Source: a virus. Taken from it: DNA of 32,480 nt. This document shows, one piece after another, positions 1,163 to 28,591 of the stretch. Location: IMG/VR virus record IMGVR_UViG_3300040809_001489, positions 1 to 32,480 of that record. One strand, given 5' to 3'. How positions within the stretch are numbered: position 1 is the first letter of the stretch; the number at the start of each line of letters is the position of its first letter. The notes under the pieces were generated by a model, which was given only the letters and a program-made list of their open reading frames with translations, had not been told where the DNA came from and searched no databases. The translations under genes and the position numbers were made by a program.

Positions 1163-1190
1163 ACTTTAGCACAAAAAAGATACTTGTCAA
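1163..1190 (-). promoter_or_regulatory. promoter for the 90-aa gene, abutting repeat R1
   Basis: TTGACA (1185-1190) is followed after 16 bases by TAAAGT (1163-1168), a weaker -10. The -35 box directly abuts the six-G arm of repeat R1. Confidence 0.6.
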
Positions 1191-1250
1191 CCCCCCTAAT
1201 GGGGGGAACAAGGCCCGCCCCGCACCCCCACTACGGGGGGTACGGGTGTC
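1191..1250. repeat. dispersed double-hairpin repeat, copy R1
   Basis: On the plus strand six C, TAAT, six G (1191-1206) form a perfect hairpin. The spacer is AACAAGGCCCGCCCCGC, and a second hairpin ACCCCC/GGGGGT (1224-1241) follows. The block sits between the stop at 1255 and the promoter at 1163-1190. It could end minus-strand transcripts, but the bases after the first hairpin are the next promoter, not a pure T-run. Confidence 0.8.
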
Positions 1251-1932: not shown

Positions 1933-1960
1933 ATTATACAGAGTATCGGCAGCCTGTCAA
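1933..1960 (-). promoter_or_regulatory. consensus promoter with A-tract upstream region
   Basis: TTGACA (1955-1960) and TATAAT (1933-1938) are 16 bases apart on the minus strand, both perfect. Two 7-base A-tracts (minus strand, 1975-1981 and 1985-1991) repeat at 10 bp just upstream, resembling an UP element or intrinsic bend. They lie within the 3' end of the upstream gene, where they encode EKNPKKSS. Confidence 0.88.
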
Positions 1961-2609: not shown

Positions 2610-2891
2610 CTATTTGTTGGCGATAATCCGTTCTGACAAAACGCTTTCGATGAACTCTAGTTCAGCCCTTCGCCAATCAAACTTTGTGGTCTTCTGCTTT
2701 TCAAGGCAGCGGTTGTAGTTGTCGTAGACTTGTTCTAGCGTCAGGTCAGCGGTCAACTTCCTGATCGCTTCCTGCCACAGCGGATCGCTGGCACGTTCAA
2801 CGGTAGTCTCAAATCGGATATGCTTTTCAGCGGTCACATGGCCGTCACGATTGTCACGGGCGAAGTCACAGCAAGCGGTTGAGTTTTTCAT
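2610..2891 (-). CDS. hypothetical helical protein, 93 aa
   Basis: The start is set at ATG 2891 (MKNSTACCDFARDNRD), which has AGGAAAG about 5-6 bases upstream. A longer reading to 2927 would begin inside the -10 box of the promoter at 2926-2954 and is therefore unlikely. The product is 93 residues and mostly charged helix, with CC near the N-terminus and a C-terminal segment WRRAELEFIESVLSERI. No domain is recognised. It is a single-gene unit. Confidence 0.75.
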   Translation of the reverse strand: MKNSTACCDFARDNRDGHVTAEKHIRFETTVERASDPLWQEAIRKLTADLTLEQVYDNYNRCLEKQKTTKFDWRRAELEFIESVLSERIIANK

Positions 2892-2925: not shown

Positions 2926-2954
2926 ATTATTGCAGATGGACTTTAGGCTGTCAA
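2926..2954 (-). promoter_or_regulatory. promoter with phased A-tracts, next to palindrome and R3
   Basis: TTGACA (2949-2954) and AATAAT (2926-2931) are 17 bases apart. Two 7-base A-tracts on the minus strand (2967-2973 and 2978-2984) repeat at 11 bp just upstream, followed further up by the palindrome at 2981-3020. Confidence 0.75.
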
Positions 2955-2980
2955 CAAGAAAAAAGATTTTTTTGCGATTT

Positions 2981-3020
2981 TTTTGGTACACCGTTTGCTC
3001 GTGCAAATACCATACCAAAA
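2981..3020. repeat. 40-bp dyad-symmetric element, copy 1
   Basis: A single-axis palindrome: TTTTGGTA (2981-2988) pairs with TACCAAAA (3013-3020), and TTTGC (2994-2998) pairs with GCAAA (3003-3007) around a TCGT loop, with a 4x4 internal loop between the stems. A second copy with a compensating base-pair change lies at 3614-3651. It could be an operator, a terminator stem or a structured RNA. Confidence 0.75.
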
Positions 3021-3023
3021 CTC

Positions 3024-3084
3024 TTACCCCCCTAATTGGGGGGACGAGGCCCGCCGCCACCCCCCGAAAGAGGGGGTTAACCCC
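3024..3084. repeat. dispersed double-hairpin repeat, copy R3
   Basis: Six C, TAATT, six G (3027-3043) are followed by ACGAGGCCCGCCGCC. A second hairpin CCCCC-GAAAGA-GGGGG (3061-3076) overlaps a perfect palindrome GGGGTTAACCCC (3073-3084). It follows the stop of the 64-aa gene (3112). Confidence 0.8.
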
Positions 3085-3111
3085 TCGATCGAGTTGGTGT
3101 ACAGATGCACA

Positions 3112-3306
3112 CTAGTTGAACCATCGCTTTCGCAACTCGGTTGCACCTTCAGTGATAACGCACCGCAGTAGTGTACGGTGTGCAGTACTGATCGTTTGAT
3201 CAGATAGCCTACGGCTTGCACCGTGCATGCGAGCGGTGATCTCCTTATCGCTCATGGTTTCGAGTACAGCCTGGAAGTATGGGCCATTGTTTTCGATACT
3301 GAACAT
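3112..3306 (-). CDS. hypothetical protein, 64 aa
   Basis: ATG 3306 has AAGGAG 7 bases upstream, and that ribosome site overlaps the TAA of the preceding gene (TAAGGAG). The 64-residue product is mixed helical with a basic C-terminal half (ARMHGASRRLSDQT, ELRKRWFN). No family is recognised. It is the second gene of the unit starting at 3488 and is followed by repeat R3. Confidence 0.75.
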   Translation of the reverse strand: MFSIENNGPYFQAVLETMSDKEITARMHGASRRLSDQTISTAHRTLLRCVITEGATELRKRWFN

Positions 3307-3317
3307 TTGTTTACTCC

Positions 3318-3488
3318 TTACAGTTGAACGGGCATGTGGTCGAGGATGACTTCACAGTGGTCACCACAGCAGGGGCACACTTCATACTCGACATGGGTGT
3401 CGTCGAGGAACTGGTTGCAGCAACCACTTACAGCGACCTGAACCTCAGCGAAAGTTTCCTCAACCTGAATGTGATCGAAAGCGTACAT
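3318..3488 (-). CDS. small zinc-ribbon-like protein, 56 aa
   Basis: A complete frame from ATG 3488 to TAA 3318 has AGGAG 8 bases upstream. It starts MYAFDHIQVEETFAEVQVAV and carries two cysteine clusters, CC at residues 23-24 and CPCCGDHC at 38-45. Together these could bind zinc as a ribbon or knuckle. It is the first gene behind the promoter at 3527-3555. Small zinc-binding phage proteins often bind nucleic acids or host proteins, but the partner cannot be told from the sequence. Confidence 0.72.
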   Translation of the reverse strand: MYAFDHIQVEETFAEVQVAVSGCCNQFLDDTHVEYEVCPCCGDHCEVILDHMPVQL

Positions 3489-3526
3489 GTCATTTACTCC
3501 TAAAAGTCGTTCTCAACTATGCCCTA

Positions 3527-3555
3527 AGTCTACAATAGATATCGGCAAGCGTCAA
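3527..3555 (-). promoter_or_regulatory. promoter with phased A-tracts for the 3488-3112 unit
   Basis: TTGACG (3550-3555) and TAGACT (3527-3532) are 17 bases apart. Two 8-base A-tracts on the minus strand (3569-3576 and 3581-3588) repeat at 12 bp just upstream. Confidence 0.68.
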
Positions 3556-3613
3556 CCCCTTGATCAAGTTTTTTTTGGAATTTTTTTTGTAGCAAATCCC
3601 ATGCCGAAAATAG

Positions 3614-3651
3614 TTTGGCACGTCGTTTGCTCGTGCAAATATCATGCCAAA
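3614..3651. repeat. dyad-symmetric element, copy 2
   Basis: TTTGGCA (3614-3620) pairs with TGCCAAA (3645-3651), and TTTGC (3626-3630) pairs with GCAAA (3635-3639) around TCGT. Compared with copy 1 the T-A pair 2987/3014 is replaced by C-G 3619/3646, so pairing is conserved although sequence is not. Confidence 0.75.
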
Positions 3652-3656
3652 ACTTT

Positions 3657-3710
3657 TACCCCCCTAATTGGGGGGACGCGGCCCGCTCCGAACCCCCCAT
3701 TATGGGGGTT
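3657..3710. repeat. dispersed double-hairpin repeat, copy R4
   Basis: Six C, TAATT, six G (3659-3675) are followed by ACGCGGCCCGCTCCG and a second hairpin AACCCCC-CATTAT-GGGGGTT (3691-3710) with a 7-bp stem. The short stretch after it (3725-3750) holds another C-rich/G-rich imperfect hairpin with a TAA loop. Confidence 0.8.
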
Positions 3711-6338: not shown

Positions 6339-6503
6339 ATGAATAATATAAAATATGTTCCTAGCACACTCAATGTAGTTGCAAAAGGAGTAGACATATC
6401 TAAAGATTTAGAAGCCAACCAGGAACAAAGTGTAGCATCTCTGCTACAGAACGCTTATGAAGAAAAAGAAAACACAGAGGACACCCAAGAAGAGAGTAAG
6501 TGA
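6339..6503 (+). CDS. small acidic protein upstream of the sigma gene, 54 aa
   Basis: A complete frame runs from ATG 6339 to TGA 6503 with AAAGG 7 bases upstream. It starts MNNIKYVPSTLNVVAKGVDI and ends in a Glu-rich tail (NAYEEKENTEDTQEESK). It overlaps the sigma gene (start 6457) by 47 bases in another frame. The overlap and small size suggest a regulatory or coupled partner of the sigma gene, perhaps a co-activator, but this is inference and no family is recognised. Confidence 0.65.
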   Translation: MNNIKYVPSTLNVVAKGVDISKDLEANQEQSVASLLQNAYEEKENTEDTQEESK

Positions 6504-7077
6504 AGAAGAATTATTAGAAACAATAGAAATTATTAGCAAAAAATTAGCTTACAAATTTAAGTTTGGGTATCACGAAATAGAAGACATGAAACAGCAAATT
6601 AGTATATTTGCCCTAGAAGGACTTAAAAATTACGACCATAAAAGACCCCTAGAAAACTTTTTATGGACTCATGTTAGGAATAGGCTCTTTAATTTTAAGA
6701 GAGACAACTACCAAAGACCAGACAAACCCTGCAATACTTGTCCTTTTTTTGATCCTCATCTAAAAGAATCTCTAAACGGTTGTTCCAAATATACGGACAT
6801 TACTCAATGTGAAATGTATAATAGTTGGTACATAAGAAATATCAATAAGAAAAACTTAATGCACCTAAATACTATAGAAGAAATTAAAGAGTATTTACCA
6901 AACAACAAATATAATCATCAAGACAAAGTTTCTAATAATGAAATTATCAATAAAATAGAAGAAAACCTCAATGGAGAATATAGACAGACATACATTAAAT
7001 TAAAAAACGGAACTAAAGTTTCTAAAAATGATGTAGAGAAACTAGCAATTAAAATAAGAGAGATACTCAATGGCTAA
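6457..7077 (+). CDS. gp55-like late-transcription sigma factor, 206 aa
   Basis: Residues about 22-85 match the pattern of sigma70 region 2 as found in the T4 late sigma gp55. ISKKLAYKFKF leads into an acidic turn (IEDMKQQ), then GLKNYDHKRPLENFLWTHVR and RLFNFKR, with conserved aromatic and basic residues for promoter melting and -10 recognition. A four-cysteine insert follows (C92, C95, C109, C118), likely a zinc knuckle. The C-terminus (171-206) has a helical R..Y..L pattern like a small region 4. It would bind host RNA polymerase and direct it to TATAAATA-type late promoters such as those at 4877 and 5008. It has its own sigma70 promoters (6268-6338). The start lies inside the 54-aa ORF, and its stop overlaps the next gene. 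The assignment rests on motif reading without an alignment. Confidence 0.65.
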   Translation: MKKKKTQRTPKKRVSEEELLETIEIISKKLAYKFKFGYHEIEDMKQQISIFALEGLKNYDHKRPLENFLWTHVRNRLFNFKRDNYQRPDKPCNTCPFFDPHLKESLNGCSKYTDITQCEMYNSWYIRNINKKNLMHLNTIEEIKEYLPNNKYNHQDKVSNNEIINKIEENLNGEYRQTYIKLKNGTKVSKNDVEKLAIKIREILNG

Positions 7078-7891
7078 AAAAAGAGGACAGCTAAGTTTAG
7101 ATGAACAGCAATTCATCAAAAACAATATAGGGCAACTAACAGTAGAGCAAATAGCTGATCAAATAAACAGAAGTGTGAAGCCAGTAGAAAGATATATAAT
7201 TGAAAATAGACTTAGTTTCGACAAAGAAGAAAATATAACGGATGAAAACCTTAGATTAAAACTGCACGCAAAAACATTTTGGCCGGAAATTATCAGACAA
7301 TTTGATGAAGACACGGGAGAATTAGAATATTTTGAAAATACATGGATAGGACTAGTTAAACAATTTAGAGAGGACGTACTTCCTGCCGAAGAACTTCAGA
7401 TTAAACAATTTATTACAATAGATATTTTAATCAATAGAAGCATGAAAGAAAGAAAGAGACATATTAGCGAAACAGAAAGATTACAAGCTAAAGTTGATCA
7501 AGAATATAATTTGCCCGAAGAAGTAAGAGATGGACCAAAACTAGCAAATTTAGAAACACAATTAAGTTTTGCCAGAAATAGCATAGCAAGTTATACAAAT
7601 GAATATACTAAACTTTTAAATGAACAACAAAAAATTAGTAAAGACCTTAAGGCTACAAGAGAGCAGAGAATCAAAAGAATCGAAGACGGAAAAAGTAGTT
7701 GGGTCGGATTAATCCGAATGTTAGAAGATGAATTAATCAGAGAAAAAGAAGGAAAAGAAATGGAAATTATTGCTATGGCAACAAACAAAGCAAAAGAAAC
7801 GCTGTTTGAAAATCATCAATACCAGGACGGAAAAGTAGATGTTCCTATTTTGAGTCCAGAAAGTTTAGAGTATCAAGATGAGGAACTATAG
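7070..7891 (+). CDS. candidate terminase small subunit, 273 aa
   Basis: Residues about 21-46 form a helix-turn-helix (LTVEQIADQINRSVKPVERY), typical for DNA binding. The rest is long, charged and largely helical, with probable coiled coil around 160-205, and ends acidic (LEYQDEEL). Small terminases have an N-terminal HTH and helical oligomerisation regions and sit just before the large terminase, as here with HNH and nuclease genes between. It overlaps the sigma gene end by 8 bases and the HNH gene by 14. It could instead be a DNA-binding regulator; no direct family match is claimed. Confidence 0.5.
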   Translation: MAKKRGQLSLDEQQFIKNNIGQLTVEQIADQINRSVKPVERYIIENRLSFDKEENITDENLRLKLHAKTFWPEIIRQFDEDTGELEYFENTWIGLVKQFREDVLPAEELQIKQFITIDILINRSMKERKRHISETERLQAKVDQEYNLPEEVRDGPKLANLETQLSFARNSIASYTNEYTKLLNEQQKISKDLKATREQRIKRIEDGKSSWVGLIRMLEDELIREKEGKEMEIIAMATNKAKETLFENHQYQDGKVDVPILSPESLEYQDEEL

Positions 7892-23165: not shown

Positions 23166-23838
23166 AAATGGTCCTAAAATAACAACTGATGGTTTAGTTC
23201 TTTGTATGGATATTGCTATCAGCAAGAGTTATCCTGGTAGTGGTACTACAGTGTACGATCTTAGTCCAGCAAAAAATAACATATATAGAAGTGGACCAGC
23301 ACCACGCTCATTCTATGGAGGCTGTTTTGAATTGAATGGGTCAAATGATTATTTCGATACTGGTATACCTACAGGAACTTATGATGCTAATGGAAATAGT
23401 TTTTTTGCCTGGGTTTATACTACAACTTATGCTAGACAAAAAATATGGAGTTGGTATGCTCTAGTTAATAATATCCAGAATCGAGGAGATTTTGAATTAC
23501 AAAGCACAAGCAACAACTTAAAATTTCAAGCATATGGACAAACCACAGATAATGATACTGGTTTTACTATAACTACAAATACATGGTGGCATGTTGGCTT
23601 TGTTTGGAATCCCGGTCAGACTGTTACTATATATGTCAATGGAGAATCTAAGTTTAATGGAACTCAGACTTTATCTTCACAAGCAAATGGCGGTAATTTT
23701 AGAATAGGATGGCGACCATACGAAAACGAAAAACCGTGGCAAGGTTATATGTCCCAAGTAACATTATATGATCGTCAATTGTTAGCGAACGAAGTTCGTC
23801 AGAATTTCAACGCCACCAGAGGGAGGTTTGGAGTATGA
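23155..23838 (+). CDS. LamG-like adhesin paralogue 2, 227 aa
   Basis: LamG/concanavalin-like sandwich. It starts NGPKITTDGLVLCMDIAIS, then SYPGSGTTVYDLS, CFELNGSNDYFDT (about residues 58-71) and WWHVGFVWNPGQTVTIYVNG, and ends LLANEVRQNFNATRGRFGV. Such domains bind sugars or protein ligands on surfaces. The start overlaps the preceding gene by 11 bases, and the stop TGA overlaps a 15-codon ORF (23835-23882) leading into the next LamG gene. It differs from its paralogues by DIAIS in place of DAANR. Confidence 0.82.
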   Translation: MAYRNGPKITTDGLVLCMDIAISKSYPGSGTTVYDLSPAKNNIYRSGPAPRSFYGGCFELNGSNDYFDTGIPTGTYDANGNSFFAWVYTTTYARQKIWSWYALVNNIQNRGDFELQSTSNNLKFQAYGQTTDNDTGFTITTNTWWHVGFVWNPGQTVTIYVNGESKFNGTQTLSSQANGGNFRIGWRPYENEKPWQGYMSQVTLYDRQLLANEVRQNFNATRGRFGV

Positions 23839-23882
23839 GAAAAATAAATTTTTCATATAATAGAGAGGAGTTATCCTCATGA
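23835..23882 (+). CDS. 15-codon bridging ORF (possible coupling peptide)
   Basis: Reads MRKINFSYNREELSS. Its ATG overlaps the stop of paralogue 2 and its TGA overlaps the ATG of paralogue 3, both as ATGA. The codons AAAGGGAGG-like before it (GGGAGG) provide a ribosome site. It may only serve to couple translation. Open reading over 15 codons can arise by chance, so this is tentative. Confidence 0.35.
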   Translation: MRKINFSYNREELSS

Positions 23883-25159
23883 GTATTTATGGCGGTCCTG
23901 ATATAGAAACAGATGGTCTTGTTTTGCATTTAGATGCGGCAAATAGAAAATCATTCCCTGGCACTGGTTCAAGTTGGAAAGATCTTTCTGGTCGTGGAAG
24001 AAATTTTACACTCGTTAATAGTCCCAGTTTTTCTACAGCTAGAAAAGGAAAGTTTATACTTAGCGGATCTAACGATTATTTTAGTTTATCGGAATCTATT
24101 GTTGCCGGTAAAGATGAATTTACTTGGCAAGCGTTTGTTAAATTTCATAATATGCAACCAGCTAAGGCTTCACCGTATTATCAATTATATATTGAAGAAT
24201 CTCAATTATGGATAGCTCAGTATAAAAATGCTGTTGGAATAGATTTAAGGCAGTCAGACAATACTTGGTTTGATGGTTCTGGTGGAGATGCTAGAGGAGC
24301 ACAAATAGGTGAAGATTCTATTTGTCGAAATGTTTGGTATCATTTTGCATGGACATTTAATCGTTATGGTAATGGTGGAACATCTGGACAAGTTAAGGGA
24401 TATCTTAATGGAGAATTAGTTACGACAGCAAATACTAATAAAACAGGACCGATCAAAAATAATGGTACTCTCCCAGAAATAGGTCGTCGTGGTGCTTCTA
24501 ACCAGAATTTTGATGGTGAGATAAGTAAAGTTTCTTTTTATGATAGGCAATTATCAGATAAAGAAATAAAAGATAATTACAATGCGTTAAAAGGTCGATA
24601 CCCAGAAGAAGATCTTTCAGACTATGAGAATGTAACATATACTACAGATAATTCAGGAAATATCTATATAAGTAATAATGGCGGTAAAAATGTTGATATG
24701 TTTAGGATTGGTAGTACTGGATGGAACAGACAATTCTATAGTACAACCAGCTTTACCGCACCATGTACAATAGAATATAGAAAAAACGCAGCGGCTAGTA
24801 ATAATGGTCAAAGCTACGCTATGATATCATGGAATGTTGATCCTACATCTAACTCAAGTTACAATACTCTTGATTATGCTGCTTATCCATATCAACAAAA
24901 TTCCTTTGTTCTTTACAACAATGGTGCGGGTATCACTCCGTCTAAAACTTGGAACGCAAATGAAAAACTATACATTGTTTACAATACCGATGGCACTTTA
25001 AAACACTATAATGGCTCTTCTCTTTTATATTCTGTAAATTATGGCACTGGTAAAACAGTCTATGTAGACACATCTTTGTATAGTAATAATAATGTATATG
25101 GTGGATTCTATTCAGTTAGAGTTCGAAAACAAGCTTGGAATGGAACAGCATATGTATAG
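23879..25159 (+). CDS. LamG-like adhesin paralogue 3 with extra C-terminal domain, 426 aa
   Basis: LamG domain at residues about 5-243: GGPDIETDGLVLHLDAANRK, FILSGSNDYFSLS, VWYHFAWTFN, YLNGELVTT, and end KEIKDNYNALKGRYPEE. A second strand-rich domain follows (about 245-426), including NVDMFRIGSTGWNRQFYS and SFTAPCTIEYRKN and IVYNTDGTLKHYNGSSLLYS. This is the only paralogue with an added C-terminal domain. It may bind a second ligand or help assembly. The usual KGRFG end becomes an internal linker KGRYP. ATG 23879 has GAGGAG upstream. Confidence 0.8.
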   Translation: MSIYGGPDIETDGLVLHLDAANRKSFPGTGSSWKDLSGRGRNFTLVNSPSFSTARKGKFILSGSNDYFSLSESIVAGKDEFTWQAFVKFHNMQPAKASPYYQLYIEESQLWIAQYKNAVGIDLRQSDNTWFDGSGGDARGAQIGEDSICRNVWYHFAWTFNRYGNGGTSGQVKGYLNGELVTTANTNKTGPIKNNGTLPEIGRRGASNQNFDGEISKVSFYDRQLSDKEIKDNYNALKGRYPEEDLSDYENVTYTTDNSGNIYISNNGGKNVDMFRIGSTGWNRQFYSTTSFTAPCTIEYRKNAAASNNGQSYAMISWNVDPTSNSSYNTLDYAAYPYQQNSFVLYNNGAGITPSKTWNANEKLYIVYNTDGTLKHYNGSSLLYSVNYGTGKTVYVDTSLYSNNNVYGGFYSVRVRKQAWNGTAYV

Positions 25160-25171
25160 GAGAGAATTATA

Positions 25172-25852
25172 ATGGCAAATTTATATGGACCAAGAATAGT
25201 AACTGATGGACTAATGATATATTTAGATCCAGCTAATAGAAAATGCTATCCAGGTTCTGGAACAACGCTATATGATTTGTCTGGTCGTGGAAATAATGGT
25301 ATAATGTTAAACGGCATTTCAATAAGTAGTAATGTGATTAGCTTTGATGGAACTAATGATTATTTGGCAATTACTGATACGGGGACGAATTTTGACGGAT
25401 GGGCTACAGCACAAACATTATTAATATGGATGTATCATTCAGCTACTCAAGTTGGTAGAAGAAATCCTTGGAATCAAGCTTATGGTGGATATGGCACATG
25501 GACTCATGAACTTAATAATACCATAAGTTCTTATTGGGGTGATGCTGGGGGTAATTCTAGTCCATATGCAGGTAGAGCTAGTGCTGGTACACCAAGAAAC
25601 GAATGGATTTGCATGGGAACTGTAAGGAATACAACAGAGCATAGATGGTTTAAAGATGGATCTAGAACTGCTACATATAGCCATTCATATGGAACACTAA
25701 CAAATACTAGTGCTAGTGTTACTCTTGGTACTGGGTATACAGGTGGCTATTGGTCTGGGCAAATGGGATTAATTATGGCGTATGAAAGAGATTTAACAGA
25801 CGCTGAAGTGTTACAGAATTATAATGCATTAAAGGGGAGATTTGGAAAATGA
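25172..25852 (+). CDS. LamG-like adhesin paralogue 4, 226 aa
   Basis: LamG sandwich with GPRIVTDGLMIYLDPANRK, CYPGSGTTLYDLSGRGNNG, FDGTNDYLAITD, and end EVLQNYNALKGRFGK. The centre is rich in Trp, Tyr, Gly and Asn (WGDAGGNSSPYAGRAS), likely loops that form the ligand face. AGGAGA precedes ATG 25172. Its TGA overlaps the next start as ATGA, and its C-terminal codons AAAGGGGAG act as that gene's ribosome site. Confidence 0.82.
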   Translation: MANLYGPRIVTDGLMIYLDPANRKCYPGSGTTLYDLSGRGNNGIMLNGISISSNVISFDGTNDYLAITDTGTNFDGWATAQTLLIWMYHSATQVGRRNPWNQAYGGYGTWTHELNNTISSYWGDAGGNSSPYAGRASAGTPRNEWICMGTVRNTTEHRWFKDGSRTATYSHSYGTLTNTSASVTLGTGYTGGYWSGQMGLIMAYERDLTDAEVLQNYNALKGRFGK

Positions 25853-26508
25853 GCTACGCAAACGGCCCCAGAATAGTTACCGATGGATTAGTGCTGCATT
25901 TAGATGCAGCGAATAGGAAGAGTTATCCTGGTAGTGGAAATACTTGGTATAATCTAGCCCCATACAATATAAATTACATACTATACAATTCTCCCGCTTG
26001 GGATGGTAAATCCTTGGATTTTGCTACCAATGAATATGCAGATAAGACTGGAATAAACCTATATTATGGTGACAACTATACTGTTATTTCGTTTAATGAT
26101 ATGAAAGATTCACCATCTAATTGGAGAACTTTAGTAAGAGGAGATTCAGAGCATCCACTTATTGTATCAACAGCAAATAAACTAGGATGGTATTCTAATC
26201 TTGCAGGAGGTTTTAGGGACTGCGGCTATAATGTTGAAACTGGAGGTCTTGAAGCGAGATGGAATATGTTAACTCTTCTTGGAGAAAATGGTTCTACTAA
26301 TAAATTTTATATTGATGGCAGCACACAGGTTGGAAATTCAACTACTAATACTGCTGGAAATAATTGTTCTGGCATCAATAATTATAGAATATGTTGGCCG
26401 TCACAACCTTGGGGTAAGATATCTACAATATTAATGTACAATAGAGCATTGTCTATGGACGAATTAGATAAAAATTATGCAGCCCTAAAAGGAAGATTCG
26501 GACTATGA
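25849..26508 (+). CDS. LamG-like adhesin paralogue 5, 219 aa
   Basis: Starts NGPRIVTDGLVLHLDAANRK with SYPGSGNTWYNLAPYNINY. The usual FDGSNDY is changed to LDFATNEYADKTG. The end is SMDELDKNYAALKGRFGL. One LamG-type domain, 219 residues. The ribosome site AAAGGGGAG is inside the preceding gene, and ATGA overlaps occur at both ends. It therefore depends on coupled translation from its neighbours. Confidence 0.8.
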   Translation: MSYANGPRIVTDGLVLHLDAANRKSYPGSGNTWYNLAPYNINYILYNSPAWDGKSLDFATNEYADKTGINLYYGDNYTVISFNDMKDSPSNWRTLVRGDSEHPLIVSTANKLGWYSNLAGGFRDCGYNVETGGLEARWNMLTLLGENGSTNKFYIDGSTQVGNSTTNTAGNNCSGINNYRICWPSQPWGKISTILMYNRALSMDELDKNYAALKGRFGL

Positions 26509-27197
26509 GCAATAATTACGGCCCCAGAATAGTAACAGATGGACTCGTTTTGTGTCTGGATGCAGCAGACAAGAATAGCTACGCTGGAAGCGGTAGTACA
26601 TGGACAGATATTTCTGTAAATTCACACAATGGACAAATATTAAATGGTCCAAACTATTTGAATAATAACAATGGAATTTTTAATTTTGATGGCAGTAATG
26701 ATTTTATTAATGTTCCTGGCCTGAGTGATATTTTACCATTAAACAATTTTACCGCTTTAGGGTGGTTTAAAGCTAATATTACTGCTTTTAAAACATTAAT
26801 AGCCTACAGCAGCGGATCGCAAGGTTGGAATTTGTTAATAGCTCCTAATCGTACCCTAAATTGTAGAACGGACACAAGTAACTCCCCCAACCAATATCCA
26901 TCTGATGCTGGAATATTTGGTGATGATACATGGAGATACGCTGGTGTTTCTGGTAGTGTATGGAACGCTACTGGTATAAAAATTAAACTTTTTCACCAGG
27001 GTGAGTATAAAAGCCAAAAGAATTTAAACGGTCAATTTAATAATACTAGTGGTCATAATTTTAGAATAATGGGTCCAGGTTTAGGTACTGGTTATACTGC
27101 TGGAAGTTGTGCCTTGGTGCAGTTTTATAACAGAGCATTGTTGGATAGCGAAATTCTACAGAATTACCAAGCAACCAAGGGCCGATTTGGCCTCTAG
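26505..27197 (+). CDS. LamG-like adhesin paralogue 6, 230 aa
   Basis: Starts YGPRIVTDGLVLCLDAADKN, then SYAGSGSTWTDISVNSHNG, FNFDGSNDFINV (about residues 60-71), and end LDSEILQNYQATKGRFGL. One LamG-type domain. ATG 26505 overlaps the TGA of paralogue 5, with AAAGGAAG in its C-terminal codons as ribosome site. Its own end uses GGCCGA for Gly-Arg, which has no ribosome-site sequence, and the next gene begins 19 bases later with its own AAGGAG. Confidence 0.82.
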   Translation: MSNNYGPRIVTDGLVLCLDAADKNSYAGSGSTWTDISVNSHNGQILNGPNYLNNNNGIFNFDGSNDFINVPGLSDILPLNNFTALGWFKANITAFKTLIAYSSGSQGWNLLIAPNRTLNCRTDTSNSPNQYPSDAGIFGDDTWRYAGVSGSVWNATGIKIKLFHQGEYKSQKNLNGQFNNTSGHNFRIMGPGLGTGYTAGSCALVQFYNRALLDSEILQNYQATKGRFGL

Positions 27198-27215
27198 AAT
27201 AAGGAGCGAAGAGAC

Positions 27216-27863
27216 ATGGCAATTAGTGGTGGGCCAGATATCGTAGAAGACGGGCTTGTTCTTTATTTGGACACAGCCGATCCTAACTCTCTTCCTCCTG
27301 GTCAATCTATCAAAGACCTAGTTACTGGAACGGCCTTTTCTGGTGCAAACTATAACACAGCTGATTGGTCAAATAATGTTACTAAAATAACTATTTGTTT
27401 ATGGTGGCAAAAAATAGGTAATAGTACTCAATACTCCACTCGTTTTGTTAGAAAAGACGGAGGCACAAGCACATCTTCTTTTGTTTTATATCATTTTCAT
27501 AATTTTAATGGAACCACTCCTCACATGGAAGGACTTATAGGGTGGTATGCTAATAGAGGAGGTAATTGGGGAACGATTTCTAGTTATTATAACATGAGTT
27601 TAAATGAAACGGTTTTTATGTCATTACAATTTGATGTTGATAAAGGCGGGGGTCAAATGTGGGCAAATGATACTAAAATAGGTTCTAGGGTTGGTGGAGC
27701 AAATAATTTAGGAATAACAAATTCTGGTCCACTTGGACTTACGGGTTTGTCTGGAGATAGCGACACAACACGCATATATACATTTGCCTGTTATGATAGA
27801 GAATTGAGCGATGAACAAATATTACAAAACTACAACGCAACAAAAGGTAGGTACGGATTATGA
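27216..27863 (+). CDS. LamG-like adhesin paralogue 7, 215 aa
   Basis: The most diverged member. It starts GGPDIVEDGLVLYLDTADPN with SLPPGQSIKDLV in place of SYPGSG, lacks a clear FDGSNDY strand, and ends LSDEQILQNYNATKGRYGL. The centre is Trp- and Asn-rich (GWYANRGGNWGTISSYYN). ATG 27216 has AAGGAG 9 bases upstream. Its TGA overlaps the next ATG, with AAAAGGTAGG in its end as ribosome site. It may bind a different ligand or have lost part of the sandwich. Confidence 0.78.
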   Translation: MAISGGPDIVEDGLVLYLDTADPNSLPPGQSIKDLVTGTAFSGANYNTADWSNNVTKITICLWWQKIGNSTQYSTRFVRKDGGTSTSSFVLYHFHNFNGTTPHMEGLIGWYANRGGNWGTISSYYNMSLNETVFMSLQFDVDKGGGQMWANDTKIGSRVGGANNLGITNSGPLGLTGLSGDSDTTRIYTFACYDRELSDEQILQNYNATKGRYGL

Positions 27864-28591
27864 GTTACAGAACAGGTCCAAAAATAGTAACAGATGGTCT
27901 GGTGTTGTGTTTAGATGCAGCGGATCGTAATTCATATCCTGGCAGCGGAACAACTATATACAATTTAGCTCCGTACACTTATAACGGAAGTTTTATTTCT
28001 ACAAGTGCAAATACTAGTTGGAATAGTAATGGATATTGGCAAGTTAATGATTTTGGCGGATTGGCTTTTGGCGTTAGTGAAATTAGTACAGACCCAAGTA
28101 AATTTTTATACAACATATCTGGTGAATTAACATATGAAATTTGGCATTACCCAACTCTAATACAGGCACAAAAGAGACTTATGTCTACTGACAGATCAGA
28201 CTATCACTGTCTCATATGGTATGACGGTTTTTCTGGAAATGGAGTTAATATATCTTCATTAGAATGGGCATACGACGGTAAATTTTTATATTCATCTGGA
28301 TGGTCTACAAATCAGTGGTATCATATTGTTGGTACAGGTTCAAGAGCAAATTCTAGAATGAGAATATATAGAAATGGTCAACAAGTTGCGTCAACCAGTG
28401 TATCTGCTAGAAATCCTTTAGGCCCAGGTAGCACCAGACCTTTCGCTGTAAATAAGAATGTAGAAGCAACTGTTGATACACAATACGGAGGCACTGGCTA
28501 TACAAGTATTGTTAGGATTTATGGTAAAGAGCTATCAGCAGATGAAGTGAATAATAATTTTGAGGCAACAAAAGGCCGCTTTGGCCTATAA
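27860..28591 (+). CDS. LamG-like adhesin paralogue 8, 243 aa
   Basis: Starts TGPKIVTDGLVLCLDAADRN, then SYPGSGTTIYNLAPYTYNG. The middle contains LTYEIWHYPTLIQAQKRLMS, NQWYHIVGTGSRANSRMRIY and RNGQQVAS. The end is LSADEVNNNFEATKGRFGL. One LamG-type domain of 243 residues, the longest single-domain member. ATGA overlap joins it to paralogue 7. It is the last LamG gene and ends with GGCCGC for Gly-Arg, again without a ribosome-site sequence. Confidence 0.82.
   Translation: MSYRTGPKIVTDGLVLCLDAADRNSYPGSGTTIYNLAPYTYNGSFISTSANTSWNSNGYWQVNDFGGLAFGVSEISTDPSKFLYNISGELTYEIWHYPTLIQAQKRLMSTDRSDYHCLIWYDGFSGNGVNISSLEWAYDGKFLYSSGWSTNQWYHIVGTGSRANSRMRIYRNGQQVASTSVSARNPLGPGSTRPFAVNKNVEATVDTQYGGTGYTSIVRIYGKELSADEVNNNFEATKGRFGL

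Follow-up and report, generated by a model that had tools for sequence, protein, structure and literature searches.

At the two palindromes of this phage DNA, the conserved unit is not the dyad but a 17-bp asymmetric box, TTTGGCAYRNNATTTGC(W), whose GG-N10-GC core has a strict spacing. Clusters of these boxes probably act as a putative upstream control region for a subset of sigma70-type early promoters, in a class-I-like and helically phased manner. Judged by sequence, they would represent a conserved, phased, RpoN-like box array at the early promoters of an uncultivated phage family.

The window, i.e., the whole stretch of 32,480 nucleotides (32.5 kb) that was analyzed, is a fragment from an uncultivated tailed phage, taken from a virus record. 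Its left 4.5 kb hold small leftward genes, and the remainder holds rightward terminase, portal/capsid and tail genes. Tandem paralogous genes at 23170-27953 have a common GPxIVTDGLVLxLDAAN-type N-terminus and are probably tail-fibre related. Rfam gave two tRNAs and no other match. A search for cultured relatives found no close ones, as the terminase was only ~25% identical to Bacillus phages and the head protein only 21% identical to Bacillus phage G. Both palindromes lie ~27-60 bp upstream of the -35 hexamer of leftward sigma70-type promoters, in the following setting:

2610..2891, - strand: small early gene, 93 aa, MKNSTACCDFARDN..., downstream of the promoter at 2926..2954
2926..2954, - strand: sigma70-type promoter, TTGACA-N17-AATAAT
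2955..2981, - strand: A/T-tract DNA, UP-element-like, from box 1a to the -35 hexamer; A-tract repeat family D12
2982-3019: palindrome 1, consisting of boxes 1a and 1b
2982..2998, + strand: box 1a, TTTGGTACACCGTTTGC, promoter-proximal GG-N10-GC box directed away from the early promoter, 27 bp to the -35
3003..3019, - strand: box 1b, TTTGGTATGGTATTTGC, opposite box 1a over a 4 bp gap
3026..3077, strand-less: repeat R copy, two hairpins and a G+C-rich linker, next to the box cluster on its upstream side; family D6
3321..3488, - strand: small Cys-rich early gene, 56 aa, MYAFDHIQVEETFAEVQVAVSGCCNQ...CPCCGDHCEV..., downstream of the promoter at 3527..3555
3527..3555, - strand: sigma70-type promoter, TTGACG-N17-TAGACT
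3592..3608, - strand: box 2c, TTCGGCATGGGATTTGC, extra box directed towards the promoter, 36 bp to the -35
3614-3651: palindrome 2, consisting of boxes 2a and 2b
3614..3630, + strand: box 2a, TTTGGCACGTCGTTTGC, left half of palindrome 2
3635..3651, - strand: box 2b, TTTGGCATGATATTTGC(A), right half of palindrome 2; fits YTGGCAYRNNNNTTGCW
3658..3709, strand-less: second repeat R copy, beside the box cluster; family D6

An earlier note on this DNA had placed dyad elements at 2981-3020 and 3614-3651, and these are present at 2982-3019 and 3614-3651. The common core that it described, TTTGC-TCGT-GCAAA, has exactly two occurrences in the window, at 2994-3007 and 3626-3639. The difference between the outer arms, T-A in one copy and C-G in the other, is real in the sequence (TTTGGTA/TACCAAA in palindrome 1, TTTGGCA/TGCCAAA in palindrome 2), and so is the flanking context, with an R copy on the far side and the A-tract and promoter on the near side. 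The box at 3592-3608 (-) was overlooked. It has one mismatch to TTTGGYA-N5-TTTGC and adjoins palindrome 2 without being palindromic with it. This pattern has four exact matches in the window, which are the four palindrome arms. Allowing up to 2 mismatches gave 17 matches compared with 8.2 expected, a number reached in 0 of 100 shuffles. No box scoring like these five was found in the late region of the window.

Boxes are not found at every early promoter. The window promoter at 1933-1960 (-), with its -35 at 1960 and an A-tract at 1971-1991, is without a box, and the R copies at 1190 and 2229 indicate that early promoters can be boxless with or without R. The boxes therefore mark a subset of early promoters. 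Many early promoters also carry GCCGATA in the -35/-10 spacer, both in the window (3533-3549 and 1939-1954, - strand) and in L006, L007 and L010; this motif is possibly a second operator or a sign of a common cassette origin.

A terminase search of IMG/VR resulted in 424 related contigs, of which 80 were retained, and an IMG/VR scan with the palindrome pattern gave related phage contigs. The related contigs from the latter scan share the context of R hairpins, boxes, A-tracts, a sigma70-type promoter and a small gene. Genome matches to the palindrome pattern in Thioalkalivibrio, a betaproteobacterial MAG, Clostridia and Peregrinibacteria were rejected as unrelated perfect inverted repeats lacking promoter context. 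A match on L004, which resembles coding sequence and also lacks this context, was rejected too. For TTGGCAY...TTTGC in the relatives, the GG-N10-GC spacing occurs at 109 distinct places compared with 0-1 at each of nine other spacings. The pattern TTGGCAYNNNNNTTGC had 79 matches in 22 of 25 related contigs, while the reversed control pattern had 0, and on the longer of the 25 contigs the matches are usually confined to a stretch spanning a few kilobases. The logo of the box reads T-TTGGCA-Y-R-NN-A-TTTGC-W, and the box contains TTTGG and TTTGC as a direct repeat of 12 bp. Since the scan imposed the GG-N10-GC spacing, the GG and the GC, and scored the T's, the logo partly reflects the search itself; the imposed pattern has less influence on the spacing test and on positions Y, R and W.

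The arrangement of boxes in the relatives is changeable. Some boxes stand alone, while others face each other across 4-5 bp (a palindrome), lie back to back, or form direct tandems 9-10 or 20-21 bp apart. Among 75 non-redundant elements, each with a good promoter, 38 consist of one '-' box, 12 are '-+-' and 8 are '--'. The single '-' boxes in 38/75 elements mean that the two-fold symmetry of a dimeric-repressor dyad operator is not conserved.

These arrangements also bear on whether the palindromes are an RNA stem-loop under selection for pairing, a reading to which we assign next to no probability. The window palindromes do fold well as RNA (z -3.5 to -5.4). However, two tandem elements in the same position showed no folding beyond that of shuffles (z +0.7 and +1.1), and single-box and tandem elements occupy the equivalent place without a stem. 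Pairing is not kept through compensatory changes as in a structured RNA: at their five inner positions, the palindromes are complementary in 20 of 100 cases compared with 27.4 when partners are shuffled, and of the 20 palindromic elements, 18 are paired at the outer C/T position compared with 16.4 after partner shuffling, i.e., without significant covariation (p = 0.18). What the earlier note took for a compensating change at this position is a single event in one duplicated pair, and further copies with disrupted outer pairing, which it had named as evidence against its own proposal, exist (e.g., L006:3860). In addition, the element lies upstream of the accompanying promoter, and the transcript would therefore not contain it. 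Because of the inner pairs, the outer pair, the tandem folding and the upstream position, we read the element as a protein site and not as an RNA stem. The tandem and single arrangements together with the pair statistics rule out both the RNA-stem and the dyad-only readings. Selection, which the earlier note had suggested to act on a dyad structure, is evident, but single and tandem boxes in relatives speak against the dyad as its target. Of its alternatives, an RNA stem or a dimeric protein site, the stem is lost and the dyad is not the unit, while the protein site fits; its interpretation is to this extent partly supported.

A further explanation is that the copies are paralogous mobile promoter cassettes which merely share old sequence without function. 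The window palindromes do sit in a 98-bp duplicated cassette that is 84% identical and includes the R hairpins (family D10). However, across contigs the boxes stay constant, with strict spacing and phasing, while the flanks, R repeats and downstream genes have diverged, which makes non-functional duplication very improbable.

The promoter-proximal box is directed away from the promoter in 64 of the 75 elements (p = 3e-10, a value that overstates independence, as the elements are linked by descent and duplication), and the middle boxes in palindromes are directed towards it. The second window element has a proximal box of the minority orientation. The proximal box mostly lies 27-31, 39-43, 50-53 or 60-63 bp from the -35, with few exceptions (36, 69 and 69). 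The best period for these distances is 10.7 bp, with a Rayleigh p of about 1e-15 to 2e-15 and, without the first peak, p = 4e-4 against a uniform distribution with the period searched; shared descent and duplication make these values, too, look more independent than they are. Jumps of one turn occur within single contigs, as in L012 (40, 41 and 51 bp) and L044 (30, 31, 40 and 52 bp), and five of the 11 proximal boxes in the opposite orientation lie at 26 or 36-37 bp, one turn apart. Such one-turn steps could also arise when whole A-tract units are gained or lost, which counts against a phased regulator. For CRP and SoxS-type activation, activators located between -60 and -100 are established to depend on helical phase, and CRISPRa with SoxS in E. 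coli is active in windows of 2-4 bases every 10-11 bases between -60 and -100 (PMC7113249). Despite the overstated p-values, the phasing of the boxes matches that of upstream activators.

From these features we infer that a protein binds the boxes and may activate the promoter, although the same features would suit repression. A regulator on the proximal box would have its centre at around -74, or farther upstream by one to three turns, and would sit on a fixed helix face relative to RNA polymerase, across the A-tract/UP-like DNA. From this upstream position, like a class I activator, it may contact RNA polymerase or bend the DNA towards it, and thereby tune the early promoter. Additional boxes, facing (as in the palindromes) or in tandem, might recruit more copies of the regulator.

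In the relatives, the elements lie upstream of strong sigma70-type promoters. The promoters are likely real, because close downstream of the 76 elements examined lie 70 distinct small ORFs that have a Shine-Dalgarno-like site. Box-bearing promoters often drive Cys-rich, zinc-ribbon-like proteins of 40-66 aa (SDCCG...CPxCxEHCE), for example at 3321-3488 (-) in the window and in L003, L006, L007, L012, L044, L051, L055 and L073; for these small proteins, no relative of solved structure was found. On the other side of the boxes, copies of repeat R are found in the window (1190-1241, 2229-2280, 3026-3077 and 3658-3709) and in L005, L006, L007 and L044. The repeat consists of two hairpins and a G+C-rich linker of ~14-15 nt, and this layout is kept while the hairpin sequences vary between phages (C6TAATTG6, CTGCCAAAATGGCAG, GACGTAAGTC and others). 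It is not a standard terminator, as it has no clear U-tract.

The identity of the binder is suggested by the box itself. The reported RpoN consensus for -24/-12 elements is YTGGCACGrNNNTTGCW (PMC13207237), and the box logo correlates with it at 0.865, a value reached by 0 of 200,000 column shuffles; as the scan imposed part of the logo, this match is supporting and not independent proof. All the defining -24/-12 features are present: GG-N10-GC, TTGGCAYR, TTGC and a W after the GC (TTGCW). Because the box has the sequence of a sigma54 -24/-12 element, we propose a sigma54-type specificity, and host sigma54 (or E-sigma54), or a protein of equal specificity, is the leading candidate for the putative binder. 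On the 25 related phage contigs, neither sigma54 (PF04552) nor a sigma54 activator (PF00158) was found, and the literature searched held no precedent for sigma54 promoters in phages.

The phage contig G005, a relative which like the window has a sigma factor and an ERCC4 protein, also has Pol III alpha, DnaB and RecA genes and adjacent DUF1501 and DUF1552 genes (L133:10377-13112). Both DUF families are abundant in Planctomycetota, which suggests a Planctomycetota-like host for G005. Regulation by sigma54 has been reported in Planctomycetia, while sigma54 is effectively absent from Actinomycetota (PMC12316311). Host sigma54 is thus a possible binder. We propose only tentatively, and with some doubt, that this widespread phage family would use arrays of consensus -24/-12 boxes to employ host sigma54, alone or as E-sigma54, in a role other than that of an ordinary promoter factor: it would regulate sigma70 early promoters from upstream in helical phase, or serve as their divergent switch.

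The same sequence match and the Planctomycetia link of G005 would also suit boxes that are working sigma54 promoters, bound by E-sigma54 and activated by a host enhancer-binding protein. Most would then face away from the sigma70 promoter and transcribe the preceding early gene in antisense, and boxes in the opposite orientation would transcribe into the small gene, as a time or stress switch. We consider this unlikely. From most proximal boxes, transcription would run into the R hairpins and the previous gene's 3' end, the predicted start lies inside the first R hairpin where inspected, and transcription into the hairpins and preceding gene has no apparent purpose. Helical phasing to the sigma70 promoter is not expected of a divergent promoter either, the boxes are limited to a stretch of a few kilobases and are absent from the window's late genes, and the 25 contigs yielded neither the activator gene nor enhancer sites.

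Alternatively, the RpoN resemblance may be due to chance, and the boxes may be operators for an activator or repressor that is encoded by phage or host and has no relation to sigma54. A protein with two HTHs or a tandem dimer, for instance, could recognize TTTGG and TTTGC at a distance of one turn. This reading is possible, if on the whole doubtful. Transcription-factor sites typically show such orientation and phasing, the 12-bp direct repeat would suit a protein of this kind, and the phage contigs searched encode no sigma54. However, the consensus match extends to degenerate positions (Y, R, r and W), and among the top families listed for ~140 proteins of two relatives there is no conventional HTH regulator, which argues weakly against this reading. 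The only regulator standing out there is a sigma70-like factor. The sole transcription proteins detected are a sigma70-like factor (window 6457-7077, + strand), which is a phage-encoded sigma70 region 2 protein that also has counterparts in relatives, and a D5-like protein (window 7070-7891). A scan of G006 also gave a sigma region 4 match. The product of 6457-7077 is a candidate late sigma factor.

The anatomy of the boxes offers a testable regulatory code for early-gene control in a large phage family that has no close members in culture, and flags candidate host-takeover genes encoding small Cys-rich proteins. If the binder is sigma54, phage early promoters would, unusually, be wired to a host stress/nitrogen sigma factor, whose boxes would act in phase with a sigma70 promoter. 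If it is another protein, a second protein would read the RpoN-box sequence.

Compared with known systems, the boxes resemble the sigma54 -24/-12 element in sequence, in the strict GG-N10-GC spacing and in the degenerate YR and W positions. They differ in that they form clusters of 1-4, are in helical phase with a sigma70 promoter and are mostly directed away from it; in addition, the activator and enhancer sites were not found for the phage boxes, and transcription from them is putative. Class I sites (CRP; the MarA/SoxS/Rob marbox) are alike in lying upstream at about -74 to -106, at whole helical turns from a sigma70 promoter, with a preferred orientation and UP-like DNA between, and the boxes likewise show a fixed helical phase and an orientation preference (64/75); however, their motif differs from CRP sites and from the marbox, with a spacing 2 bp longer. 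MarA/SoxS and AraC sites have a similar two-box logic with a spacing 2 bp off. The PeSL of T4-type phages are mobile promoter/stem-loop cassettes, and are alike in being duplicated units of early promoter and hairpin scattered between small early genes. The phage box arrays, in contrast, sit between the hairpins and the promoter and belong to a different phage family.
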